DNA of 64,000 nt from Lentimicrobiaceae bacterium. Lineage in GTDB: Bacteria > Bacteroidota > Bacteroidia > Bacteroidales > F082. Numbering within the stretch: the stretch's first letter is position 1; each line of letters opens with the position of its first letter. Of the stretch, positions 1 to 18,805 are shown in pieces. The stretch lies in assembly GCA_018661505.1 (NCBI GenBank), contig JABJIE010000026.1:62001-126000 (forward strand). The letters run 5' to 3'. A program made the translations under genes and the position numbers. The notes beneath the pieces were generated by a model, which was not told where the DNA came from, ran no database searches, and was given only the letters and a program-made list of their open reading frames with translations.

Positions 1-1002
1 GTAACAGGCATATCGGGATATATTGGTCAGCATTGCGCTGCTGAACTATTAAAAAAAGGATATTCTGTAAGAGGCTCCGTTAGAAATTTATCTAAAAAAG
101 ATGAAGTTATTAATGGTTTAAAAAATGAAGTTGACCCTAAAGAAAATTTAGAGTTTTGTGAGTTAAACCTATTGAAGGATGAGGGTTGGGGAGAAGCAAT
201 GGAAGGATGTGATTTTGTATTACATGTTGCATCACCTTTTATAATAAAGGTGCCAAAGGATGAAAATGAATTAATTAAACCTGCTGTTGATGGAACATTA
301 AGAGCACTTAAGGCTGCTAAAAAAGCTGGAATAAAACGTGTTGTCCTAACCTCTTCTATGGTTGCGATGATGGGAGATAGCAATGATTCAATAAATATTA
401 ATGAAGATACGTGGACTAATGTTGATGCAAAAAATACAACTGCCTACTCTAAAAGTAAAACCATGGCTGAAAAAGCCGCATGGAATTTTATAAAAAATCA
501 AAAAGGAGATATTCCTTTGGAGCTGGTAGTAATTAATCCAGGTCCCGTATATGGGCCAACATTTTCTGGTAATTTATCAGGGGAATCCATGACTACCTTT
601 GCCAAAATGATCACTGGTAAAATGCCTATGCTACCACAGGCTGCTATCAACATGTCAGATGTTAGAGATATTGCCGAGATTCATGTACAGGCCATGGAAA
701 ACAAAAAAGCAAGTGGTAATAGGTATATAGTAGCTACGGAGAAACCTATATCTTTTAAAGATATTGCTTCCATCTTAAAAAATAATGGTTTTAAGAAAGC
801 AAGTACAAATACCGCTCCTAATTTTTTAATTAGGTTCATGGCAAATTTCAATGACGAGATGAAAGGAATGTTGCCTTTTGTGGGATATACTTATTCTGGG
901 GATATAAACGAGACTAAGAAAACATTTAATTGGATGCCGATTCCCATAGAAAAGACAGTACTAGATACTGCTGAGTCTGTTAAAAAAGCATTGAATAAAT
1001 AA
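1..1002 (+). CDS. NAD(P)-dependent epimerase/dehydratase, dihydroflavonol-reductase-like (5' truncated)
   Basis: The reading frame is open from base 1, so the gene begins upstream of the window; the track's ATG at 172 is internal. The first residues, VTGISGYIGQ, form the TGxxGxxG dinucleotide-binding motif of extended short-chain dehydrogenases. A YSKSK segment supplies the catalytic YxxxK pair, and INPGPVYGP is typical of the dihydroflavonol-4-reductase / cinnamoyl-CoA-reductase-like branch. About 333 residues are visible, so only a few N-terminal residues are missing. Members reduce carbonyls or oxidise alcohols with NADP(H); the substrate cannot be told from sequence. It stands alone on the plus strand ahead of a PLP-enzyme gene. 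Confidence 0.85.
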   Translation, partial: VTGISGYIGQHCAAELLKKGYSVRGSVRNLSKKDEVINGLKNEVDPKENLEFCELNLLKDEGWGEAMEGCDFVLHVASPFIIKVPKDENELIKPAVDGTLRALKAAKKAGIKRVVLTSSMVAMMGDSNDSININEDTWTNVDAKNTTAYSKSKTMAEKAAWNFIKNQKGDIPLELVVINPGPVYGPTFSGNLSGESMTTFAKMITGKMPMLPQAAINMSDVRDIAEIHVQAMENKKASGNRYIVATEKPISFKDIASILKNNGFKKASTNTAPNFLIRFMANFNDEMKGMLPFVGYTYSGDINETKKTFNWMPIPIEKTVLDTAESVKKALNK

Positions 1003-1073
1003 ATTCATATTTCTATTGTGTATAGATCTGGTTATTGAATTCTTTCTAACTTTACTTTATCAAAAAACCATTT

Positions 1074-1958
1074 GTGGATTTAAGTAAAAGCATACTCCAG
1101 AGGATTGATAAAATTAATGGTATAGATCTTTACCTAAAAAGAGATGACCTTATACACAAAGATGTTTCAGGTAATAAATGGAGAAAGCTTAAAGAACATA
1201 TAAGGCTTGCTCTAGAAAAAAACATTGATACGATAGAAACCTTCGGGGGGGCATATGCAAACTTGCTTCCTTCAGTAGCAGCTACTGGAAAAATATATGG
1301 AGTAAAAACAATTGCCACAGTTAGAGGAGAAGAAATTGCTAATCCAACAATTGATTATTGTCGTAAACTTGGAATGGAGCTACGTTTTGTAAGCAGAGCT
1401 AGATACAAAGAAATCGCACGAAACTTGAGGGAGGTGGTAATTAAGGGAAAAACTCTTATTGTTCCCGAAGGTGGTGCATCAAAGTATGGTGTAATTGGTT
1501 GTGAAGATATCGTAAATGAAATAGACATGGATTTTGATATTATTACAGTTGATGCAGGAACTGGAGCCACAGCAGCTGGTATGTTAAGAGCGCTTAAGAA
1601 ACATCAGAAATTAGTCGTAATTCCAGTTTTAAAAGGAGAATTCATGAAGGTTGAAATCAAAAGGTTATACGAAGATACTTATGGCAAAACCTGTCCCGAT
1701 AATTATGATGTGATTGAGGATTATCATTTTGGTGGCTTTGTTAAATGGAACCTAGATCTCATTGAGTTCATAAATTTATTTAGAAATAAATATGGAGTTC
1801 AGCTAGATCCTATATATACTGGAAAACAACTTTACGGAGTTATTAACCTTATGGAAAATGGATATTTTAAAGGCATGAATAATATTGTGTCTGTTCACAC
1901 TGGCGGCCTTCAAGGAATTTCTGGATTTGAACAAAGGTTTGGTGTAAAGTGCTCATAA
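1074..1958 (+). CDS. PLP-dependent ACC deaminase / D-cysteine desulfhydrase family protein
   Basis: The N-terminus LYLKRDDLIHKDVSGNKWRK is the hallmark of the 1-aminocyclopropane-1-carboxylate deaminase/D-cysteine desulfhydrase family; the lysine of SGNKWRK is the expected PLP Schiff-base residue. DAGTGATAAGM resembles the glycine/threonine phosphate-binding loop, and VHTGGLQG near the end is also typical. At 294 residues it is slightly shorter than the usual 300-340. The only plausible start is GTG at 1074; no in-frame ATG lies upstream. Members deaminate or desulfhydrate small amino acids such as D-cysteine; true ACC deaminase activity cannot be inferred. It lies 71 bp after the epimerase gene on the same strand. 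Confidence 0.85.
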   Translation: MDLSKSILQRIDKINGIDLYLKRDDLIHKDVSGNKWRKLKEHIRLALEKNIDTIETFGGAYANLLPSVAATGKIYGVKTIATVRGEEIANPTIDYCRKLGMELRFVSRARYKEIARNLREVVIKGKTLIVPEGGASKYGVIGCEDIVNEIDMDFDIITVDAGTGATAAGMLRALKKHQKLVVIPVLKGEFMKVEIKRLYEDTYGKTCPDNYDVIEDYHFGGFVKWNLDLIEFINLFRNKYGVQLDPIYTGKQLYGVINLMENGYFKGMNNIVSVHTGGLQGISGFEQRFGVKCS

Positions 1959-2332
1959 ACTATTAAAATAAAAAATTCACATAGTTTTTGCAGAATATAT
2001 CTGAGTTTAACAAATTACAATGTTGTTATTGATTTTCTAATCTCCTGCTATGTATTTTGCACATTATGTAATAACCAATTGTAAGGGAAATAAAAATTAA
2101 GTTTAAAATTGTTATATAGTTCATTTCAAATGGATTTTTATTAACCTGTAGAGACTCTGTCGGACTTTCAGGTATCCAATCTAAATATAGAAAGGAATAG
2201 TCCAAAAATAAGGTAAGATGTCAAATATTAATTGATCAATACGTTAGGTCTGATCAGAGCATACTGATGATACTTTTCCTTTTAGTGGTTGGTCTTGTAT
2301 CAATGTTTAATTCTTTTGTTAGAGAAAAGCAA
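1959..2332. other. Intergenic region (374 bp) with one unassigned minus-strand open frame
   Basis: This gap separates a plus-strand gene from the end of the minus-strand psuG. I see no RNA gene and no convincing terminator. Its minus strand contains an open frame ending at 2026 with a clear hydrophobic helix, listed separately. Confidence 0.6.
2026..2205 (-). CDS. Small putative membrane ORF downstream of psuG (possible gene remnant)
   Basis: The minus strand is open for 64 codons, from after a stop at 2221-2223 down to TAA at 2026-2028. It was missed by the ORF track because no ATG gives 60 residues; a TTG at 2205 would give 59. The product has an aromatic, acidic N-terminus and one hydrophobic helix (ITILNLIFISLTIGYYIM), then a basic tail KIHSRR. 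That layout looks like the C-terminal end of a membrane protein. It lies just beyond psuG in the same orientation, so it may be the tail of a lost transporter or other decayed gene. I do not recognise the family, and it may be spurious. Confidence 0.3.
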   Translation of the reverse strand: MDYSFLYLDWIPESPTESLQVNKNPFEMNYITILNLIFISLTIGYYIMCKIHSRRLENQ

Positions 2333-3253
2333 CTACCCTTGTTTCGAGTAATGAAGTGCTATTTTAGCCGCTAAATCAGCGTTATTTTGAATTAACTTAA
2401 TGTTGGCATCCAAACTCTTTCCCTCCGTAATTTCACTCACTTTTGAGAGCAAGAATGGTGTTATGTTCTTTCCCGTTATGTTCTCTTTATCGGCTTCAAT
2501 AATGGCCTGGTTAATAGCCTCATTCATAATACTTGATTCAAGCTCAAAGGCAACTGGAATTGGGTTGGCAACTAGGACACCACCGTCAACACCTAAGTTC
2601 CATTTGGTCTTTAATATTGCAGCAATCTCGAGTGCTGAATCAATCTTGTAATCAACATCAAAGCCTGACTCTGATGAATAAAAGGCTGGCAATTCAGATG
2701 TTTTATACCCAATAACAGGAACGCCTTTCGTTTCTAGATACTCCAGCGTTAGACCTATATCCAAAATTGCTTTAGCTCCAGCGCACACGACACAGACATT
2801 TGTATTAGACAGTTCCTCGAGGTCAGCTGATATGTCTAATGTTTTTTCAGCTCCCCTGTGAACACCTCCAATTCCTCCAGTGGCAAATACAGCTATCTCT
2901 GCAAGGTTTGCGATGATCATTGTTGCGGCAACGGTCGTTGATCCAGACTGCTTTTGAGAGACCGTGATTGCAAGGTCTCTTCGTGAAACCTTTCTGACAT
3001 CATCATTGGTCGCCAAATACACAATCTCTTGGTGAGTAAGGCCTACCTTTAACCTACCATTAATAATAGCAATTGTTGCTGGTATAGCTTTATTAGAGCG
3101 CACTGTCTCTTCAACCATTATAGCGGTCTCAATATTCTTAGGATAAGGCATCCCATGAGAAATAATAGTAGACTCAAGCGCGACAATGGGATCCCCATTT
3201 TTAATCGCTTCTTGCACATTTGGGTGGATATCAAGATAATCACTAAATTTCAT
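2333..3253 (-). CDS. psuG: Pseudouridine-5'-phosphate glycosidase
   Basis: This enzyme cleaves the C-C glycosidic bond of pseudouridine 5'-phosphate to uracil and ribose 5-phosphate. The protein has the expected length (306 aa) and the family's conserved N-terminus (VALESTIISHGMPYPKN) and VFATGGIGGVHRGAE motif. The catalytic lysine of the family lies in the conserved VVCAGAKAILD segment. It overlaps the upstream kinase gene by four bases (ATGA), so the two are translationally coupled, and together they give a complete two-step cytoplasmic pathway for pseudouridine catabolism. Confidence 0.96.
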   Translation of the reverse strand: MKFSDYLDIHPNVQEAIKNGDPIVALESTIISHGMPYPKNIETAIMVEETVRSNKAIPATIAIINGRLKVGLTHQEIVYLATNDDVRKVSRRDLAITVSQKQSGSTTVAATMIIANLAEIAVFATGGIGGVHRGAEKTLDISADLEELSNTNVCVVCAGAKAILDIGLTLEYLETKGVPVIGYKTSELPAFYSSESGFDVDYKIDSALEIAAILKTKWNLGVDGGVLVANPIPVAFELESSIMNEAINQAIIEADKENITGKNITPFLLSKVSEITEGKSLDANIKLIQNNADLAAKIALHYSKQG

Positions 3254-4191
3254 TGCATTTCATCATTTAATAGTAATTTAATATTATGCTCCGACAGATT
3301 CTCACTTATCGTATTTTTACTTTGTAAAGCTATTACTGCAGCAGCAGAGGCAAACTTTGCTGTCTCTTCTATGCTTGAATGATTTAAAAAACCATAAACA
3401 ACTCCAGCGGTGAAGGCATCTCCTGCTCCGTTGGCACTTTTTATATTGACCCCATGATGTAAATAATGCCCATAGTCCTTGCCGTCAAGGTAAAAAACAC
3501 CCTCATCTCCAAGTGTAATGAAAATTTGCTTACAACCTTTATCAAATATGTTTTGAGCAGCATTAAGCATAGTCTCATCATCTATAATTGAAATACCCGA
3601 GATAAGCTCAGCTTCAAGTTTATTAGGCTTAATTGTATGAAATTTCCCAATTATATGCAGAACTTTAGAAGTTTTAGCAAAGGAAACTGGATCTAAAAAC
3701 AAAGGTATATGGCTGTAGTGCTCAACAACATGCTCAATCACCTTGACTGGTATGTTTGTATCTATAACAATCACACTGCAAAGATCTAGAACATCTTTCC
3801 AGTTCATTATGTCTTGAATCGTCATTTCATCAATAATCCGCATATCGGAGATAGAAGCTAGCATATCGTTATTGTCATCAAGCAATGATAAATATTGGCT
3901 AGTTGGGAGAGTGCTGTGTTCTATTAATAATGAAGTGTCAACATTTGCCATCTTTGTTTTATTGATTACAAAATCACCAAGAGCGTCATTTCCTACATAG
4001 GAGAGTATCTTTGAATCAATTGAAATTCTTGCCATATTTTCAGCAATATTTCTTCCAACGCCGCCAGCTGACATTTCAATCTCGCCTGGATTTGAATCAT
4101 TTAAAACCAGGGGCGCATCTGAGGAGCCTTGCAGATCTATATTTAAACCTCCAATGACACAAACATACGGTTTTGTTGTATCTATATCCAT
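3250..4191 (-). CDS. psuK: PfkB-family carbohydrate kinase, probable pseudouridine kinase
   Basis: A 313-residue ribokinase-fold protein. The N-terminal signature VIGGLNIDLQG and glycine-rich SAGGVGRNIAENMARI match PfkB sugar/nucleoside kinases, and the C-terminal SANGAGDAFTAGVVYG contains the catalytic-base aspartate and anion hole (GAGD). PsuK phosphorylates pseudouridine at the 5' position with ATP, feeding PsuG. The specific call rests on the four-base overlap with psuG; by family alone it could act on another nucleoside or sugar. Its ATG lies inside the 3' end of a 47-codon membrane ORF, which suggests a three-gene coupled unit. Confidence 0.92.
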   Translation of the reverse strand: MDIDTTKPYVCVIGGLNIDLQGSSDAPLVLNDSNPGEIEMSAGGVGRNIAENMARISIDSKILSYVGNDALGDFVINKTKMANVDTSLLIEHSTLPTSQYLSLLDDNNDMLASISDMRIIDEMTIQDIMNWKDVLDLCSVIVIDTNIPVKVIEHVVEHYSHIPLFLDPVSFAKTSKVLHIIGKFHTIKPNKLEAELISGISIIDDETMLNAAQNIFDKGCKQIFITLGDEGVFYLDGKDYGHYLHHGVNIKSANGAGDAFTAGVVYGFLNHSSIEETAKFASAAAVIALQSKNTISENLSEHNIKLLLNDEMQ

Positions 4192-4325
4192 TCAGATTTA
4201 CTTATTGTTTCTGCAGATACAAAGACTCTGGTTAACGATGAAAGCACAAACCCCATGGCAAGGCCCGAAAATAATTCCCAGGTCATTCCAAAAAATGATC
4301 TAAATAGTTCTGATAAAAATTCCAT
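4182..4325 (-). CDS. 47-aa putative membrane protein overlapping psuK start
   Basis: Too short for the ORF track. ATG at 4325 opens a frame that runs to TAG at 4182-4184, ten bases inside psuK. The product starts MEFLSELFRSFFGM, then WELFSGLAMGFVLSSLTRVF, one amphipathic-to-hydrophobic helix, and ends KSEWI. This resembles the first helix of DUF318/ArsP-type permeases, but the match is weak and from memory. An AGGAG-like stretch lies about 15 bases upstream. The overlap with psuK suggests translation is coupled. It could be a genuine small membrane protein or the truncated N-terminus of a lost permease. Confidence 0.5.
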   Translation of the reverse strand: MEFLSELFRSFFGMTWELFSGLAMGFVLSSLTRVFVSAETISKSEWI

Positions 4326-4372
4326 TATTAAATATTAAGCTCCTGCACTAAAGTTAGCGCAATTTTTTTAAA

Positions 4373-4732
4373 TTATATTTTTTTGAACTTTTTAACCGTT
4401 AATTTATGCTCAACATTACCTGTATGCTTAATGTTTTTGGGCTCAAAAAGCATTATCCAAACCTCTTGCTCTGCAATGGGTTTGTGATCAACGCCTTTGG
4501 GAACGATAATCATTTCGCCTTCATTTAGCTCAACTTCTTTATCTCTAAACTCTATAATTAGTTTTCCTTTTATGATATAAAAAAGTTCATCTTCATTTTT
4601 GTGATTGTGCCAAACAAATTCTCCTTCTATCTTTGCTACTTTTACTTGCTGACCATTTAACTCTCCAATTATTCTCGGGTTCCAATGATCATCAATCAAA
4701 TTAAGTTTTTCCCTTACGTTTATTGATTCCAT
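4373..4732 (-). CDS. Cupin domain-containing protein
   Basis: A 119-residue single-cupin protein. The first metal-binding motif is visible as FVWHNHKNEDELFYIIKG (HxHxxxxE pattern), followed by a glycine-rich turn and VPKGVDHKPIA for the second motif, which keeps one histidine. Such small cupins are close to the mannose-6-phosphate-isomerase-like group, but their substrates are generally unknown. It lies 47 bp upstream of the small ORF of the psuK operon in the same direction, and could be co-transcribed with it. Confidence 0.8.
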   Translation of the reverse strand: MESINVREKLNLIDDHWNPRIIGELNGQQVKVAKIEGEFVWHNHKNEDELFYIIKGKLIIEFRDKEVELNEGEMIIVPKGVDHKPIAEQEVWIMLFEPKNIKHTGNVEHKLTVKKFKKI

Positions 4733-9503: not shown

Positions 9504-10544
9504 TTATTTAACTTTTGTGATTAGTTTAGTTGGGTCATAGCCTTCTTCATTTGAGCTAACCTGTTTACTTGGTCCATAATGACGCATTAATACATTAAAT
9601 TTTCCAGTAGTGTTGCCTTCAACAATAGGAATATTATTTGGTTTTCCATCACATCCAAAATGCAAAGTAATTGTTCCATCTTTGTTTATAACAGGATTCA
9701 TCTCACTAGATATGTTAGCTATATCATTAAATATTCTGCCATTACCATTATATACTGTAGCAGACCAGAAATATTTATCCTTAGGGTCAGGAAAAGTTAC
9801 TTCATAACAACCATCAGCAGGAAAATATTTACTTGTTTGATATACATTATCTTGTACCATAGCACCTCCCCAGCCTCCAGCTGCGCCTACATAATTCATG
9901 TAGGGAGTTTGACCACTTTCAGGATTTCCATATGCTTTTGATTGATCATAACCATTAGAAAAAGCAATGTTACCAATATTTTCAACAGCACGGAAAGATT
10001 CCATATCCCAGTTTTTAACTTTGAATGGTTTGCCACTTCCTGCTTCAATAATTAAGTTTTCTCTTATATCGCCTTCTAGTGCACGAACAATCACAAAAGC
10101 ATAATCCGTTTTCGCTGTGATTTTGTGTCTTCCATCCCCATAAATCATAGGTTGTGTTTCATGATTTTCATCAACAACTTGTATCGTAACATATTTATCA
10201 GTCTTTGGAATTGTAATGTAAACGTCGCCACCCGACATATCAATCACAGCCCCAGAATAGGGGGTATCTCTATTCATTCGAACAACAAATTGTTCATCTG
10301 GGTTACTACTTGGTATTGGCATTGTAACAAATTGGTTTACCCCTCCTGCCATATTTGAAATTGCACCTAATCTCATATTACTATATGCTTGTGCAAAATT
10401 TTCTTGGGTGACATTGATTGGAGACATTTCATTTTTTTCTATCTCAACATTTGAATCTCCGGATTCTTTTTTAGTGTCTATATCGCATGATATAATCAAT
10501 CCGATAATGAGAGTTATAGATAATAAAAGGTTTAATTTTTTCAT
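9504..10544 (-). CDS. DUF1254/DUF1214 domain-containing lipoprotein
   Basis: 346 residues. The signal peptide ends LIISC, a lipobox, so the protein is likely lipid-anchored in the periplasm or outer membrane. The middle carries the DUF1254 signature (VRMNRDTPYSGAVIDMSGG) and the C-terminal half the DUF1214 signature (FWSATVYNGNGRI and TLHFGCDGKP). The family is widespread but functionally uncharacterised. The gene appears monocistronic, with a terminator about 130 bp downstream. Confidence 0.88.
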   Translation of the reverse strand: MKKLNLLLSITLIIGLIISCDIDTKKESGDSNVEIEKNEMSPINVTQENFAQAYSNMRLGAISNMAGGVNQFVTMPIPSSNPDEQFVVRMNRDTPYSGAVIDMSGGDVYITIPKTDKYVTIQVVDENHETQPMIYGDGRHKITAKTDYAFVIVRALEGDIRENLIIEAGSGKPFKVKNWDMESFRAVENIGNIAFSNGYDQSKAYGNPESGQTPYMNYVGAAGGWGGAMVQDNVYQTSKYFPADGCYEVTFPDPKDKYFWSATVYNGNGRIFNDIANISSEMNPVINKDGTITLHFGCDGKPNNIPIVEGNTTGKFNVLMRHYGPSKQVSSNEEGYDPTKLITKVK

Positions 10545-10720: not shown

Positions 10721-11908
10721 TTACTCATCTTTCACGAGTCTAAATCCTATGTGTTGCATTCCTGTGTCTGGAGATAACCTCATTCTTCTTGAATTTCTAT
10801 AACCTGAACACCAGTTATCATGACATAAAAATGAACCTCCACGCACTACCTTATTTGTTGCATTTGGATTATTAATTTCAATACTCTCTTCCGGCCCCTG
10901 AGGGTTATAGGTAATCTTGCTTGCATTTTTTAATTCATTATAATAATAAGGGCTATACCAATCATTTGTCCACTCCCATACATTACCTGATATATCATAT
11001 AGGCCATAGTCATTTGGAGGAAATGACTTTACGGGTGCAATATTCTCAAAACCATCAAGTGCAGTATTTGTGTATGGAAAATCTCCTTGTAAAAAATTTC
11101 CTTTCCAATTTCCTGAATCAACAGTTTCATTACCCCATGGATACATTGTTCCATTTCTTCCACCCCGCATTGCATATTCGTATTCTGCTTCTGTTGGCAA
11201 TCTCTTGCCCATCCATTTAGCATAAGCCATTGCATCATACCAAGATACTTGTGTAACTGGTAAGTTTTTAATTTCATTTATGGAAACTGTGTTACCATCA
11301 GGATTTTTCCAAAATGCTCCTTGTGTAAACACCCACCAATTGCTTAGGTTATTTTTATCCACCTTGTCATCTACAAGATGAAATACTAATGCTCCTGCTT
11401 TTAATTGTTCATCTGAAGGTTTTGGAGTTCCTTCTGGCAATTGCTTTTTTAATTCTTCCCAATTAATATCATACTCTGCAACTGTTTTATAGTTTGTAGC
11501 ATTAATAAACTCCATGTACTGACCAATGGTTACTTCGTGTTCGTCCATATAAAAATCGTCAACCTGGACAAGATGTTTAGGGAATTCATCTCCTTGCGGA
11601 AGCGCTGTTTCGGGCATTTCATTATTCTCCTTAGGGAAATCTCCCCCCATCTGAAATTTTCCTCCCTTTATGAATACCATTCCCGTTTTGGATGATGATT
11701 TCTTGGCTGAAGGTTTTATTAATTTTATGGCATCCATAAAGTTTTTTTCCAAAAAATCTTTGCCCAATAAACTATCTGTTAATGAACAGGAATGATTTTC
11801 ATTGGATGTTGTCTCAGAATTTTTATGCGGATGACATGAAATGAAAGTCAATCCTAAAAAAAATAAAATGTGAATTACATTACTTTTTATTTTTAAACTG
11901 AAGGCCAT
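10721..11908 (-). CDS. Formylglycine-generating-enzyme (SUMF1) family lipoprotein
   Basis: 395 residues. A signal peptide ends TFISC, suggesting an exported lipoprotein. The FGE-sulfatase domain spans about residues 75-390, with the usual MGGDFP..DEFPKHLVQVDDFYMDEHEVT opening region and SGNVWEWTNDWYS. Near the end, RGGSFLCHDNWCSGYR keeps two cysteines five residues apart (362 and 367), matching the copper-binding cysteine pair of true formylglycine-generating enzymes. FGE converts a sulfatase cysteine to formylglycine; many Bacteroidota paralogues have other or structural roles (for example GldK-like), but those usually lack this pair. No sulfatase gene is adjacent. Confidence 0.85.
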   Translation of the reverse strand: MAFSLKIKSNVIHILFFLGLTFISCHPHKNSETTSNENHSCSLTDSLLGKDFLEKNFMDAIKLIKPSAKKSSSKTGMVFIKGGKFQMGGDFPKENNEMPETALPQGDEFPKHLVQVDDFYMDEHEVTIGQYMEFINATNYKTVAEYDINWEELKKQLPEGTPKPSDEQLKAGALVFHLVDDKVDKNNLSNWWVFTQGAFWKNPDGNTVSINEIKNLPVTQVSWYDAMAYAKWMGKRLPTEAEYEYAMRGGRNGTMYPWGNETVDSGNWKGNFLQGDFPYTNTALDGFENIAPVKSFPPNDYGLYDISGNVWEWTNDWYSPYYYNELKNASKITYNPQGPEESIEINNPNATNKVVRGGSFLCHDNWCSGYRNSRRMRLSPDTGMQHIGFRLVKDE

Positions 11909-12029: not shown

Positions 12030-12183
12030 ATAAATATTTTCATGATTGTAATATTATTATCTTAATATCACCTTGGAAGTGGAAGTGGAGTTGCTTGTTT
12101 TAACAACAACGAAATATATGCCTGGCGGTTGATCTAAATGTATTTGAGCATTGGACGTCAGATCATCATTGGAAAAGACCAAT
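12030..12183. repeat. 154-bp direct repeat, left copy
   Basis: Aligns without gaps to 14310-14463, with three differences (12045 A/T, 12087 G/T, 12126 C/T), about 98% identity. The copies are exactly 2,280 bp apart and in the same orientation, enclosing the antiporter gene. Identity stops abruptly at both ends. Confidence 0.97.
12057..12183 (-). pseudogene. Orphan 3' fragment of a T9SS type A sorting-domain gene
   Basis: The left repeat copy carries the last ~42 codons and stop of the neighbouring FG-GAP protein: the frame reads VFSNDDLTSN through PPGIYFVVVKT to KVILR and stops. The frame upstream differs from the intact gene and meets a stop within about 12 codons, with no start or gene body. 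It therefore cannot make a secreted protein and is a duplicated scrap. Confidence 0.85.
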
Positions 12184-12343
12184 ACTTTTACACTTTTCAC
12201 TAAACACTCTCAATTTCTCTAAATCTTGTAAGAAAAAGGTCGATAATTGGACTACGTTGTGTAACATTCTTCATCTTTCTTTTTTCTAATAATTTCGTTT
12301 ATTAAATCTTTCTATATTTACTCAAAAACTAAAACCGTTAACC

Positions 12344-14263
12344 TTGACAAGCCAAACCATCATATTTTTGTCTGCTTTTATTCTTATTGCAATTGCTGCA
12401 CAACGGGTGTCATTTGAGTTTCAGAAAGTTGGACTGCCATTAATAACAGGAATGCTTTTAATTGGGATAATTGCTGGACCATTTGTTTTACATATGTTTC
12501 CTAAAGGGGCACATCAAAATCTCGATTTCATCAATGATATTGCTCTTGCATTTATTGCTTTTGCTGCCGGTTCTGAACTATATTTAAAAGAAATTAGAAA
12601 CAGAATCCGACAAATAGCATGGATTACCTTCGGGCAATTGGTTGTAACCTTTCTATTAAGTGCTTCCATTGTTTATTTTATTTCCAATCAGATACCTTTT
12701 ATGTCGGGTTTACCTCAAAATACCAAGTTAGCTATTTCCATTCTGATGGGTGTAATTTTTGTAGCTCGTTCGCCATCTTCTGCAATTGCAATTATCAATG
12801 AGATGCGTGCAAAAGGACCATTTACACGTACAGCATTAGGAGTAACAGTAATAAAAGATGTTCTAGTGATAATTTTATTTACAATTACTTTTGCTATAGG
12901 AAAGTCTCTTGTAAATGGTGCTGAGATGGGTTTTGGTTTCGTAATTCTTTTGCTGATTGAATTGGTAATTTCTTTCGCTTTAGGCTTTGTACTTAGCAAG
13001 CTCATCACCTTTTTATTATCAAAGCCAATAAATAAGAAAGTAAAATCGCTTTTACTTTTAGTTGTCGGATATTTAATTTATGTATTGGCACATTATGTTA
13101 AAATTCATTCACATAGTATAATAGGTGTAAGCTTTCTTATTGAACCTTTAATTATTTGCATAATAGCTGGCTTTTTAGTGTCAAACTTCTCCAATTATCG
13201 TTTTGAGTTTTCAAGTATTATTGAAGATGTAGGCCCTTTTGTTTATTTGGCATTTTTCACGCTTACAGGTCTTTCTCTCTCTTTTGATGTTTTACTTTCT
13301 GTATGGGAAATAGCAGTTTTATTATTTTTTGTTCGATTAATAAGCATTGTTTTAGGGGCATTAATTGGTGGTGTTATAGCAGGAGATTCCATGAAGTTTA
13401 ATTTACTAGGATGGATGCCATATATTACGCAAGCAGGAGTTGGTTTAGGGCTTGCTACTATTGTAGCTGCTGAATTTCAGTTGTGGGGTGAAGAGTTTCT
13501 AACTCTTGTAATTGCGGTAATTATAATTAGCCAAATAGTGGGTCCTCCACTCTTTAAATGGGCTATAAAATTGGTAAATGAAGACCATACAAAAGCGGAC
13601 TCTAAGGATGGTGATGATGTGAGAGATGCAATTGTTTTTGGATTTGAAAACCAATCTATTGCTTTGGCCACTCAGCTTAAAAATCAATCTTGGAATGTGA
13701 AGATAGCAACCCAACTATCTGAAGAAAAAACAAGAACGATTGAAGATGTAGAAATTGCTCATATTGCGGGGTTAACAAAAGAATCATTTTATACTATCGA
13801 GTGCGAAAAGGCTAATACCATTGTATGTTTATTATCGGATGAAGAAAATTATAAAATTTGTGAGATTGCTTATGAGTATTTAGGCACAAAAAATGTTGTT
13901 GTTCGTTTGCATGATAGAAATTGGATTGAGAAGTTTCATCAATTAGGAGTTAAAATTGTAGAACCAAATACCGCTATGGTTAGTTTACTTGATCACTTTG
14001 TACGTTCACCTCAAGCTACATCACTCTTGCTTGGCATGGAAGAAAATCAAGATACTATTGATGTGGAGATTACAGATGATAACATACATGGAATGGCTCT
14101 TAGAAATTTACGTTTCCCTTCTGATGTTACAATTTTGTCGGTTCACAGAAAAGAAAGTGCACTCGTATGTCATGGTTTTACTAGGTTAAGAAAAGGAGAT
14201 ATAGTTACTGTTGTTGGCACCCTTGAAAGTTTGGAGAAAGTCAGTCTCAAATTAGGTAATTAA
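12344..14263 (+). CDS. CPA2-type cation:proton antiporter with C-terminal TrkA/RCK-like domains
   Basis: 639 residues. About residues 5-405 form a Na+/H+-exchanger-type membrane domain with 12 or so helices; ARSPSSAIAIINEM matches the conserved unwound-helix region of CPA2 proteins. Residues ~420-545 resemble an RCK-N/TrkA-N regulatory fold, but the usual GxGxxG is replaced by GFENQS. The last ~80 residues resemble a TrkA-C domain (LRKGDIVTVVGTLESLEKV). It likely exchanges Na+ or K+ for protons at the inner membrane. The start is TTG at 12344, with no better candidate upstream. It sits between 154-bp direct repeats. Confidence 0.92.
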   Translation: MTSQTIIFLSAFILIAIAAQRVSFEFQKVGLPLITGMLLIGIIAGPFVLHMFPKGAHQNLDFINDIALAFIAFAAGSELYLKEIRNRIRQIAWITFGQLVVTFLLSASIVYFISNQIPFMSGLPQNTKLAISILMGVIFVARSPSSAIAIINEMRAKGPFTRTALGVTVIKDVLVIILFTITFAIGKSLVNGAEMGFGFVILLLIELVISFALGFVLSKLITFLLSKPINKKVKSLLLLVVGYLIYVLAHYVKIHSHSIIGVSFLIEPLIICIIAGFLVSNFSNYRFEFSSIIEDVGPFVYLAFFTLTGLSLSFDVLLSVWEIAVLLFFVRLISIVLGALIGGVIAGDSMKFNLLGWMPYITQAGVGLGLATIVAAEFQLWGEEFLTLVIAVIIISQIVGPPLFKWAIKLVNEDHTKADSKDGDDVRDAIVFGFENQSIALATQLKNQSWNVKIATQLSEEKTRTIEDVEIAHIAGLTKESFYTIECEKANTIVCLLSDEENYKICEIAYEYLGTKNVVVRLHDRNWIEKFHQLGVKIVEPNTAMVSLLDHFVRSPQATSLLLGMEENQDTIDVEITDDNIHGMALRNLRFPSDVTILSVHRKESALVCHGFTRLRKGDIVTVVGTLESLEKVSLKLGN

Positions 14264-14309
14264 TTTATTTTTGCTCCAAATACTCTTTGATGAAGAAATT
14301 AATGTTAGG

Positions 14310-14463
14310 ATAAATATTTTCATGTTTGTAATATTATTATCTTAATATCACCTTGGAAGTGGAAGTTGAGTTGCTTGTTTTAACAACAACGAAATATATG
14401 CCTGGTGGTTGATCTAAATGTATTTGAGCATTGGACGTCAGATCATCATTGGAAAAGACCAAT
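14310..14463. repeat. 154-bp direct repeat, right copy
   Basis: Matches 12030-12183 at 151 of 154 positions. It covers the last ~42 codons, the stop and 27 bp downstream of the intact FG-GAP/T9SS gene (stop at 14337-14339), and begins 46 bp after the antiporter stop codon. Confidence 0.97.
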
Positions 14464-15794
14464 TCACCAATTGTATTATATATTTTTATTGAAGAAGTAG
14501 ATGTGTTTACCGTCTCAATATTTATGGTTCCCGCAGAAGGGTTAGGATAGATAAACGTATTCTCATTGCCTTCATCAAACGCTATTTCTACTGAAGTGGT
14601 GACAAGCATATTTTTATAAACTCTTGGCTTAAAAATATCTGTAGTTGCTTGATTTGCAATACCCGTAACAATCATATCAAGATCGTTATCACCATCAATA
14701 TCACCAATTGCTGTGGTTGATCCATAAACTCTTACCAGTGAGTCTACCAGGTTAAAATTGTTATTTCCCAAATTTTCGTAGATGTGCGCTGCCACACCCG
14801 CTCCTCCAGTAGCACCAGTAACAAACACATCTAAATCATTATCATTGTCAAAATCAGCAAAATCGACTGTCCCTATTGAGGATGCTATAAAGGGTGTATT
14901 TGTTTCTAAACTAAATACCCCGCTTCCATCATTTAGATATAATTGACAGACATACTCAAAAGCATCATTATTTCCATTTATAAGTATATCAACATCACCA
15001 TCTCCATCAGAGTCACCAGCACAAATATTACTATTTTCAACTCCATCAAAAGGTGTATTATTAACCAAACTAAAATTGCCTAAGCCATCATTTTCATATA
15101 AGCTGGTCTTTTTTTCACCATTGTTATCTGTTCCCGTAATGATTAGATCCATATCGTTGTCGTTATCCATATCGAAAAAAGTTGAGGAAGATCCTCCTTC
15201 AAAAGGAGTTGATACTACCTCAGAGTAATCTCCCGTGCCATCGTTCAGGTAAAGTTTTGAGAATACTGTGTTATTATTGTCCAGCCCACACATAAAAATA
15301 TCCAGATCGCCATCGTTGTCAATATCTTCAAAGTCAACATCTCCTCCTAGGGTTCCTTCAAATGGGGTATTGGGGTCTAAGGTATAATTACCATCGCCAT
15401 CGTTGAGATAAAAATTAGCATAATAGACCGGACTGCCATCTCTTCCGGTTAGCATTAAATCCAAATCTCCATCTCCATCAACATCGGCAAACGATATATC
15501 ACCAAATTCAGTGTCGTTAGAAAGTCCCGTATCGGTTATTTCAGTGAAATTGCCCAGGCCGTCATTGCTGTATAATGTTGTTTTACGGTTAGCCAAAACA
15601 GCATCAGGACCTGTAATTATCAAGTCAAGATCGCCATCATTGTCAATATCCCCCATGGCACAAGAGCCTTGTCTGGAATCATGTAGGTTGTTTACCGTTG
15701 TGTCTTCCTGTAAATTGATATTCTGCGCAATACTTGCTACAGAAAAAAGAGTAAACACGAGTTGTAAATACAATAGTTTCATTTTCAAATTCAT
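14337..15794 (-). CDS. FG-GAP/VCBS repeat protein with T9SS type A sorting domain
   Basis: 485 residues. A signal peptide (LYLQLVFTLFSVASIAQ) precedes about seven repeats of ~55 residues, each carrying a calcium-binding DxDxDGDLD-type loop such as GDIDNDGDLDLIITG; the pattern suggests a beta-propeller. The C-terminal ~75 residues are a T9SS sorting domain: FIYPNPSAGTINIE, then IKIYNTIGELVF, ending SKVILR. The protein is therefore exported through the outer membrane and probably anchored on the surface or released. The ligand is unknown. Its 3' end is duplicated on the far side of the antiporter. Confidence 0.93.
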   Translation of the reverse strand: MNLKMKLLYLQLVFTLFSVASIAQNINLQEDTTVNNLHDSRQGSCAMGDIDNDGDLDLIITGPDAVLANRKTTLYSNDGLGNFTEITDTGLSNDTEFGDISFADVDGDGDLDLMLTGRDGSPVYYANFYLNDGDGNYTLDPNTPFEGTLGGDVDFEDIDNDGDLDIFMCGLDNNNTVFSKLYLNDGTGDYSEVVSTPFEGGSSSTFFDMDNDNDMDLIITGTDNNGEKKTSLYENDGLGNFSLVNNTPFDGVENSNICAGDSDGDGDVDILINGNNDAFEYVCQLYLNDGSGVFSLETNTPFIASSIGTVDFADFDNDNDLDVFVTGATGGAGVAAHIYENLGNNNFNLVDSLVRVYGSTTAIGDIDGDNDLDMIVTGIANQATTDIFKPRVYKNMLVTTSVEIAFDEGNENTFIYPNPSAGTINIETVNTSTSSIKIYNTIGELVFSNDDLTSNAQIHLDQPPGIYFVVVKTSNSTSTSKVILR

Positions 15795-15905: not shown

Positions 15906-17510
15906 TTATTTACTAATGTCTGATTTCTTGATAGCATCAAGTATTAATGAAATTTTTTTGTACTTGGACTCTTTAATATCAAAGTAATCGTACATGCGTC
16001 TTAATGATGAACCAATGCCATCAACACTCATAAAAGCCTTTTCAGCTATTTCTTTATTGGTAATTACCGGATCATCCAATAATATATTCAAGACCTTCCA
16101 ATCGGTTTCATTTATTTCTCGATTTATATGTTTCTCAATTCTACTTCGATCCAAATTAAAGCCGCCATCATTGTTAGATATGGAAGAAATGTGTGTTGTT
16201 TTAAGTTTATCAATTTCTTTCAATAACACTTTTTTCTGCTTTCTATAATTGTTTATACGGTATCTTGTTAAAACTATTATAACCATGATAATAACTGAAC
16301 CAATAAAAATTAGCAAGTATGAATCTTTTAATTGTTTCAATTTGAGTTGAGCCTGTTTTTTGTCATTTTCAAGTTGATTATTAAATAGCTTCAGATCATA
16401 TTCACTTTTTATGGCTTGTCTTACTAAGGCGATGTTATTTTTTTCTATGAGCACACTATCGTAATACATCATATGTTTTTCATACATTTCCAATGCGAGA
16501 TCATATTTTTCATGTTTTTTATAGACCCTGTATAAGAGCTTGAACAAGTCGGACTTAAGCTGATTATCTGTAGTGGTTTGAGAAGACTTTATTATCCTTT
16601 CTTTTAACATAATAGCTTCATCAATATTTGCTGGAAGAATTAAATTAGCCTGCATTATCAAATTAAGATTAATTTTATGATTATTGCCTAACTCTTTATT
16701 TATCTCCAGGCTTTTTTTGATGTAATTACTTGCCGTATCAATTATACCCATAGATTCATAAAGCAAGGCCATTTGGTGATAGTAATCGGAAAGTGACCAA
16801 CGGTTATTAACAGATTTGAGAACTCTATACGCTTTCTTAAGATATTTCTTTGCTTCCTCATTATTGCCTAATTTTAAATATATTGCTCCAATATTAAGCC
16901 ATATATTCCCATTTCTCTCTTCCATACCTTCTTGCTCATAAAGCTTCATAGCCCGGTTCAGATATTCCAGGGCAACACTATCTAATTCTATATCTTCATA
17001 AATAAGCCCTATATTGTTGAGCGCATCTGCTTGGGCTATATATTTTTCTTTTTTTTCAAAAGTCGCTAGGCTATATGTGTAATAACGAACTGCTTTTTGA
17101 TAATCATTTTGACCTCGATAAATATTGCCAATATTATTGTTCAGAAGTGCCACCTCTAAGGAATCTTTCATTTCAGTTCTGAACTTAACGGCTTTTTCCA
17201 GCATTGCCAAAGAACTATCAGTTTCCCCATAAATATAATACGCAAAAGCTTTTTCGTTTAATGCATTTGCCATTTCTCTTTTGGAGTTTTTTTCTTTAGC
17301 AAGGCGAAAATGATAGTTAATTAACACCACTACCGAATCCGGATGCTGAGAATGGGTATGATTCAGGTAGTAGCTATTAATTGCTTTAAAACGCAATGAA
17401 TCAGAAAGGGTGTTGTTTGTCCATATTAATTTCAGAGAATCTGGATTTACTTGTGTATACCCATTATTTGCAATTAATAAAAATATAAGTGCGCATACTA
17501 TATTTTTCAT
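15906..17510 (-). CDS. TPR-repeat membrane signalling protein with C-terminal helix-turn-helix
   Basis: 534 residues. An N-terminal signal peptide (ending NNGYTQ) is followed by about seven TPR repeats (residues ~60-360; for example NNIGNIYRGQNDYQKAVRYY). One transmembrane helix (LLIFIGSVIIMVIIVLTRY) and a short coiled coil (KKVLLKEIDKLK) follow. The C-terminal ~90 residues include TDWKVLNILLDDPVITNKEIAEKAF, a LuxR-like winged or tetrahelical HTH. This layout, extracytoplasmic TPRs joined to a cytoplasmic DNA-binding domain, is common in Bacteroidota one-component regulators. Targets are unknown. Confidence 0.85.
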   Translation of the reverse strand: MKNIVCALIFLLIANNGYTQVNPDSLKLIWTNNTLSDSLRFKAINSYYLNHTHSQHPDSVVVLINYHFRLAKEKNSKREMANALNEKAFAYYIYGETDSSLAMLEKAVKFRTEMKDSLEVALLNNNIGNIYRGQNDYQKAVRYYTYSLATFEKKEKYIAQADALNNIGLIYEDIELDSVALEYLNRAMKLYEQEGMEERNGNIWLNIGAIYLKLGNNEEAKKYLKKAYRVLKSVNNRWSLSDYYHQMALLYESMGIIDTASNYIKKSLEINKELGNNHKINLNLIMQANLILPANIDEAIMLKERIIKSSQTTTDNQLKSDLFKLLYRVYKKHEKYDLALEMYEKHMMYYDSVLIEKNNIALVRQAIKSEYDLKLFNNQLENDKKQAQLKLKQLKDSYLLIFIGSVIIMVIIVLTRYRINNYRKQKKVLLKEIDKLKTTHISSISNNDGGFNLDRSRIEKHINREINETDWKVLNILLDDPVITNKEIAEKAFMSVDGIGSSLRRMYDYFDIKESKYKKISLILDAIKKSDISK

Positions 17511-17545
17511 GTATTTAAACTTAGCTATTCTTAGAAAGAATACAT

Positions 17546-18652
17546 TTAATTTTTAATATTCCGCACTAGGTTGAGTTTTTCCCACATTTCATCGTGGAAT
17601 TCAATGGGTAGAGCATTTTCATTTGGAGCTTCCCCCATCCTTATAACCACTAAACTTTGACTTGGAGAAATATCCACAAACTGACCATTTTTACCCATTG
17701 CAACTATTAAGTCACTAGGAGCATTGGCAGACAGGCTTATATCGAATGATGCTGATAACACAGGAAAAATTATTGAGCTTTTACCATTCAACCACCACAA
17801 ATATCCATAGGATGGGTTTAAATCTTGTGAGCTATTTACCATTTGGTTATAGTAATTTTCATCATGTAATATTTTTATACCATTCCAATTTCCCTTGTTT
17901 AAAATTAATAGCCCGAATCTTGCCATATCCCTGGCTGAACTCCAATAAACATTATTAAAGCCAGAGGTAATCCAATAACCATCCATCCCAATAATAGATT
18001 CAATTTTTTGGTCTGTGTATAAATTATAGTTAATTCCGGTGGAGTTGCTTACAACTTCCTCAAGTAAGGTATAGGGAGCATTATGGTAAAACCATTGTGT
18101 TCCTGCATCACTTTTGTATTCTAAACATAATGGTTCTGTACAAACTAAATCTGGAATATTATAATTTAAACCGCTCGTCATGGTTAATTGATTTTTGATA
18201 GTAATAAGATCTTCTTTCTCTGTGCTCATGGAAGTCCAACCCTTTCCTAAATAATCTGAAGTTTTATCATTGATATTCAAATAACCATCTTGTTGTGCTA
18301 TTCCCACAAGAGCAGCGGTCAAGGTTTTTCCGGCTGACGCCCAATACCACATACTGTTAATATCGAAATTTGAATTATTTAGAATATTATTCCCCCAATA
18401 TTTTTCTAAAACAATTTTACCACTCTTTAAAACAATAAATGCTCTTGTACCGTTTGTTTCTAGGTGATCATATAAATTTGGCAATGCATTATCATTCCAG
18501 TCAAGTGATAAAAAATCAATGGTTTCCCATTCACTCCCATCATTTAAAGGAAAGTATAATTTACTGTTAGGGTTTACACTTTTAGATGTATCAGATTTAC
18601 TACAGGATATAAATATTATAATTGTTAATACAAATGAAAACAATAACTTCAT
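17546..18652 (-). CDS. Serine hydrolase, class C beta-lactamase fold, lipoprotein
   Basis: 368 residues. The signal peptide ends IFISC (lipobox). The catalytic SxxK motif is SAGK in WYWASAGKTLTAALVG. The second motif is YHN in WFYHNAPYTLLEEV, in place of YxN/YSN. The family includes penicillin-binding proteins, esterases and D-amino peptidases, so the substrate remains open. The enzyme probably acts at the periplasmic or outer surface. It stands 35 bp downstream of the TPR-HTH gene's start region, in the same direction. Confidence 0.9.
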   Translation of the reverse strand: MKLLFSFVLTIIIFISCSKSDTSKSVNPNSKLYFPLNDGSEWETIDFLSLDWNDNALPNLYDHLETNGTRAFIVLKSGKIVLEKYWGNNILNNSNFDINSMWYWASAGKTLTAALVGIAQQDGYLNINDKTSDYLGKGWTSMSTEKEDLITIKNQLTMTSGLNYNIPDLVCTEPLCLEYKSDAGTQWFYHNAPYTLLEEVVSNSTGINYNLYTDQKIESIIGMDGYWITSGFNNVYWSSARDMARFGLLILNKGNWNGIKILHDENYYNQMVNSSQDLNPSYGYLWWLNGKSSIIFPVLSASFDISLSANAPSDLIVAMGKNGQFVDISPSQSLVVIRMGEAPNENALPIEFHDEMWEKLNLVRNIKN

Positions 18653-18805
18653 AATTTTTATAACATATATTATGGTGTTATTATTGTATTAGTGTCCTAT
18701 AATCAAGATAATTATATGAAAAAGTCATCCAGAAGCCATAACGTCTTTTTACATACATAATGTGAAAATTTAATATCGAAAATCAAAAATAATAAATATA
18801 GTTTC

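Follow-up and report, generated by a model that had tools for sequence, protein, structure and literature searches.

Probable insertion of a foreign antiporter gene, with a 154-bp target duplication, at the 3' end of an FG-GAP repeat gene

A CPA2-type cation:proton antiporter gene lies between two copies of a 154-bp direct repeat in the window (the whole 64-kb stretch of DNA analysed here, G000:C43:62001-126000), and it very probably arrived there when a foreign chromosomal fragment was inserted with duplication of its target, whatever sub-mechanism made the duplicate. The insert would supply an antiporter together with the promoter of its donor, and it leaves whole the host gene at the target, which encodes an FG-GAP repeat protein. 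Single-gene transfers are mostly visible only as conflicts between trees. Here, the empty site, the gene order of the donor, both breakpoints and a truncated neighbour gene from the donor are all visible, and the event can therefore be reconstructed: one gene and its promoter would have come from another family, without a mobile element and without a break in the host gene. A long target duplication of this kind can mimic the signature of a mobile element or of a circle.

Results

The repeat pair and the gene that it encloses

A preliminary description of this DNA reported a 154-bp repeat, 98% identical, with its copies 2,280 bp apart, and a repeat search confirmed it: positions 12030-12183 and 14310-14463 match at 151 of 154 bases without gaps. 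No other direct repeat of at least 60 bp occurs within the 64-kb window, so that chance is ruled out as the source of the pair; further inserts bracketed by repeats were looked for across the same window, and none was found. Each copy comprises the last 42 codons, including the stop codon, of the gene for an FG-GAP protein with a T9SS tail, plus 27 bp downstream. The repeat had been read in this way before, and the gene call (14337-15794) and its Por_Secre_tail match agree with that reading. The copies differ at 12045, 12087 and 12126. Two of these differences are synonymous (CCA/CCG, Pro; TCA/TCC, Ser), the remaining one lies past the stop codon, and the longest exact word common to both, by sequence inspection, is 57 bp. 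The enclosed gene, earlier named as a CPA2 antiporter, is indeed an intact 639-aa open reading frame with Na_H_Exchanger, TrkA_N and TrkA_C domains, all above Pfam cut-offs, and a transport function is predicted for it. The features of the locus, from left to right, are as follows.

10721-11908, minus strand: left neighbour, FGE-sulfatase/SUMF1-domain lipoprotein; adjoins the FG-GAP gene in the sister species G002
12030-12183, minus strand: left repeat copy, a relic (last 42 FG-GAP codons with stop, and 27 bp downstream) with no functional open reading frame
12184-14309, plus strand: foreign insert of 2,126 bp, absent in G002, homologous to loci L029 and L113
12268-12343, plus strand: upstream (promoter-side) region, 87% identical over 70 bp to the region upstream of the antiporter in L029
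12344-14263, plus strand: CPA2-type cation:proton antiporter, 639 aa, TTG start, intact (Na_H_Exchanger, TrkA_N, TrkA_C)
14290-14307, plus strand: truncated 5' end of the donor gcvT (ATG AAG AAA TTA ATG TTA), the gene after the antiporter in L029, L113 and L114
14308-14309, no strand: non-homologous junction (GG), where the gcvT fragment meets the right repeat; the G at 14309 is also the base that precedes the repeat in G002
14310-14463, minus strand: right repeat copy, still within the intact FG-GAP gene and identical at 154 of 154 bases to the single copy of G002
14337-15794, minus strand: FG-GAP repeat protein with a T9SS type A sorting tail, 485 aa, intact; Por_Secre_tail match; 3' end duplicated

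An empty site in a sister species

The window belongs to a 2.46-Mb genome of 100 contigs (G000), which looks like a MAG and is 95.7% complete. It was compared over about 60 kb with G002, which is collinear with the window over 43.6 kb at a background identity of ~90.6%. At the corresponding locus of G002 (L060), the SUMF1-domain gene directly adjoins the FG-GAP gene, whose product is 93% identical in amino acids to that of the window; one copy of the repeat is present (L060:13083-13236), the antiporter is absent, and the two genomes are collinear on both sides. Nor was a match to the antiporter found across all of G002, a genome that is 77% complete. The preliminary description had proposed a search for a relative that has only one copy and lacks the antiporter; G002 is such a relative, and its existence bears out the claim that an insertion took place.

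The outer side of each copy retains a native junction. The left flank of the left copy (to 12029) is native sequence that is also present in G002, and the right copy runs on into the native body of the gene. Since both copies keep their native outer junctions, and a relative has an undisturbed single-copy site, the structure is best read from the sequence as an insertion with target duplication. A complete orthologous FG-GAP locus is available in two genomes only, as the homologue in G007 ends at a contig end before the 3' tail and is of no use as an outgroup. With complete loci from two genomes, the main argument for the polarity of the insertion is that the insert is foreign, and the single-copy state of G002 is more simply taken as ancestral.

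With G002 as the reference, all three differences between the copies sit on the left copy. The right copy and the adjoining 411 bp differ from G002 at one of 565 sites (14309-14873, 99.8%), and the left copy at three of 154 (Fisher p=0.03). This contrast is mildly significant, in a gene that is patchy throughout, and it gives a hint that the left and right copies may represent two alleles and may not both stem from a single act of copying. Tracts that are 99.7-99.8% identical to G002, against the 90.6% background, are found at 1-4700 and at 14309-14873; they may be signs of recent homologous exchange between the window species and G002. From 14859 to 15700, the FG-GAP gene is a mosaic relative to G002, with identical patches and patches of 74-88%, a pattern that gene conversion, either between species or among repeats, would be expected to leave.

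Beside the FG-GAP gene, positions 15922-18719 form a second species-specific replacement, with a TPR/HTH protein and a class C beta-lactamase-type serine hydrolase; its counterpart in G002 is a different 328-aa gene (L060:14696-15682), bestrophin-like by eye and without an NCBIfam match. With the antiporter insert on one side and this replacement on the other, variable segments thus flank the FG-GAP gene on both sides. A DUF1254/DUF1214 lipoprotein gene at 9504-10544 shows only ~57-80% identity to G002 along most of the gene, against ~95% for its neighbours, and appears to be a divergent allele or a replacement. Just upstream of the window (L106, G000:C43:58249-59930), similar adjacent sequences cross-match each other and G002:C21:42781-44466 at ~90%, which suggests a tandem duplicated gene pair common to both species.

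Foreign origin of the insert

The donor family, another family of Bacteroidota, is represented by three genomes: G427 (L029; labelled Flavobacteriales UWMA-0274), G436 (L113) and G466 (L114). The antiporter of the window is 77-78% identical to those of G427 and G436 and 65% identical to that of G466, but reaches only ~50% with antiporters from its own genus. The reverse holds for the gcvT of the window genome, which is 75-94% identical to those of genus members and ~51% identical to those of the G427 family. The relations of the antiporter thus conflict with those of a housekeeping gene of the same genomes. In the tree, the window antiporter falls inside the G427-family clade (support 100/99 and 100/100), apart from the clade of the genus. 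Vertical descent of a genus antiporter is ruled out by these identities and by the tree. A move from a native locus in the same genome was also rejected, for G000 contains no second copy and the donor gcvT differs from that of the genus. Base composition was uninformative as evidence of transfer, with a GC content of 33.3% in the insert vs 33.1% in the window. The genus members G003-G006 (L023-L026) have their own ~50% identical antiporter, which is missing in G000 and was not found in G002; the foreign antiporter may make up for a lost function.

In all three G427-family genomes, the antiporter is directly followed by gcvT, a neighbour assigned as GcvT by NCBIfam. At its right end, the insert reads ATGAAGAAATTAATGTTA (14290-14307), which corresponds to codons one to six of the donor gcvT, and then meets the repeat; none of 2000 shuffles gave as good a match. 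At the opposite end, the donor-family genomes offer no match to the first 84 bp, and the 87% identity to L029 in the 70 bp upstream of the gene argues that the promoter side of the donor arrived with the antiporter. The truncated donor gcvT at the junction, along with the gene order of the donor, indicates that the insert is a passive chromosomal fragment of the donor, with ends at random points and a non-homologous join. A pure local duplication, one of the origins suggested in the preliminary description, is contradicted by a foreign insert with a truncated donor gcvT. When the antiporter gene is compared with that of L029, there are 134, 54 and 333 differences at the three successive codon positions, a pattern that speaks for constraint on the protein; most of that history may precede the transfer.

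Search for mobility and repair genes

The antiporter is the sole gene of the insert. Genes for replication, mobilisation, integrase and transposase were sought in the insert without any being found, and so was an inverted repeat pairing its two ends; the insert thus bears neither the genes nor the ends of a transposon or IS. No viral relative was found, and the matches on plasmids are partial, with at most 27% identity and none of them close, for which reason a phage or plasmid source was discarded. Given that the insert lacks genes for replication, mobilisation and phage functions, and that close relatives in such records were not found, integration of a plasmid, phage or ICE does not fit, and the same absences tell against a ready-made antiporter circle, as had been envisaged earlier. 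Ku (PF02735) was not found in eight genomes of the genus, although the positive control, B. subtilis, did give a match, and Ku-dependent end joining was set aside on this ground (the window's own genome being 95.7% complete). ComEC, a requirement for DNA uptake, was detected in six of the genus genomes. Its presence permits transformation, without showing it.

Discussion

We favor the following course of events. In the lineage of the window, a linear chromosomal piece of ~2.1 kb from a G427-family bacterium would have been captured just inside the 3' end of the FG-GAP gene. Both joins would be non-homologous, one of them a few codons into the donor gcvT and the other beyond the promoter region that belongs to the antiporter, on its upstream side. 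The capture would have involved double synthesis of 154 bp of the target, with one copy ending up at either end of the insert, in the manner of a target-site duplication of great length. Capture of a linear fragment is favored because the joins are non-homologous, because the insert has no mobility gene, no inverted repeat pairing its ends and no viral or close plasmid relative, and because Ku was not found and ComEC is present. That the same event also produced the duplication, through template switching or staggered-break fill-in after DNA uptake, is a more tentative proposal, to which we give slightly less than an even chance.

Other routes could have made the second copy. The foreign fragment and a ~154-bp piece of the FG-GAP gene might have been ligated to form a circle of 2,280 bp, unable to replicate, that then entered the chromosome by one RecA crossover at the repeat. 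Such a circle yields exactly the observed product, has a precedent in the single-crossover duplications of E. coli (PMC3240628) and, if it carried a slightly different repeat, fits the allele difference between the copies. However, a chimeric circle must already hold DNA of the window species, the homologous piece was engineered in the published case, and there is no circle-associated gene, viral relative or close plasmid relative; a circle is not required to explain the locus, and we regard this route as doubtful. Homology-facilitated illegitimate recombination appears unlikely. According to this model, the incoming DNA was G002-like and carried the antiporter beside the repeat and the 3' half of the FG-GAP gene; recombination was homologous inside that gene and illegitimate on the left, and the resident repeat was left behind as the left copy. 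The right copy does lie in the tract (14309-14873) whose identity to G002 (99.8%) greatly exceeds the background of 90.6%, the left copy, together with its flank, resembles the resident haplotype, with both coding changes synonymous, and orphan 3' ends have been proposed to stem from such events in Vibrio T6SS arrays (PMC5361080). Nonetheless, no known genome of the G002 type contains the antiporter, patches of high and low identity alternate in the FG-GAP gene in any case, and reported events of this type mostly delete recipient DNA rather than duplicate it, with microhomology of 3-10 bp (PMC3240628).

The remaining possibilities concern the order or the reality of the event. That the insertion predates the split from G002, and was lost there by clean recombination between the repeats, is improbable: precise excision would leave exactly the state of G002, and RecA could act on repeats of this length, but an extra event is required, and no excised or intermediate forms were seen. 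A tandem duplication of the FG-GAP tail, part of which was later replaced or split by the foreign fragment, would by its geometry also have retained the outer native junctions, yet it requires two events, no other duplicated FG-GAP sequence is left, and G002 has a single copy; we consider it quite improbable. An artefact of MAG assembly deserves mention in a genome fragmented into 100 contigs. It is extremely improbable, since a simple assembler duplication would not produce three fixed differences, a longest common exact word of only 57 bp and a foreign gcvT fragment at the junction, and both native flanks are continuous.

The preliminary description held that recombination between the copies would remove the antiporter and leave the FG-GAP gene whole. 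In principle, it would restore the state of G002, with one copy and no antiporter; it is not needed for a whole FG-GAP gene, however, as the gene is already whole at the right copy. A stronger version, in which the antiporter would be a reversible cassette without a recombinase of its own, released as a circle by RecA acting between the copies and re-entering single-copy sites, strikes us as highly improbable. If it were true, the antiporter would spread and be lost in the population by homology alone.

Insertion of a foreign fragment with target duplication, the reading preferred here, can be compared with several known systems. Among small variable segments of bacterial genomes, 10-18% are flanked by direct repeats, mostly shorter than 30 bp in E. 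coli (PMC2884548). The illegitimate insertions described there resemble the present insert, which is a passive fragment with no mobility genes and non-homologous joins, but differ in the length of the repeat, here 154 bp of a gene end. In E. coli, recircularised linear DNA was integrated by single crossover with duplications of 109-950 bp in 14 sequenced clones (PMC3240628). As in our locus, a chromosomal target was duplicated around foreign DNA; the homologous piece had been engineered into the plasmid, whereas no such molecule is known here. Homology-facilitated illegitimate recombination, described in S. pneumoniae, A. baylyi and P. stutzeri and proposed for Vibrio T6SS arrays (PMC5361080), likewise results in gain of a foreign gene beside an orphan 3' gene end, but usually with deletion and microhomology, in contrast to the duplication here. 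Target-site duplication by transposons also places the same target sequence on both sides of an insert, but over a few bp rather than 154 bp, and the terminal inverted repeats and the transposase are missing here. The event is thus a well-resolved example of a known process, the illegitimate gain of a foreign chromosomal fragment, and its 154-bp target duplication is unusually long, yet with precedent.
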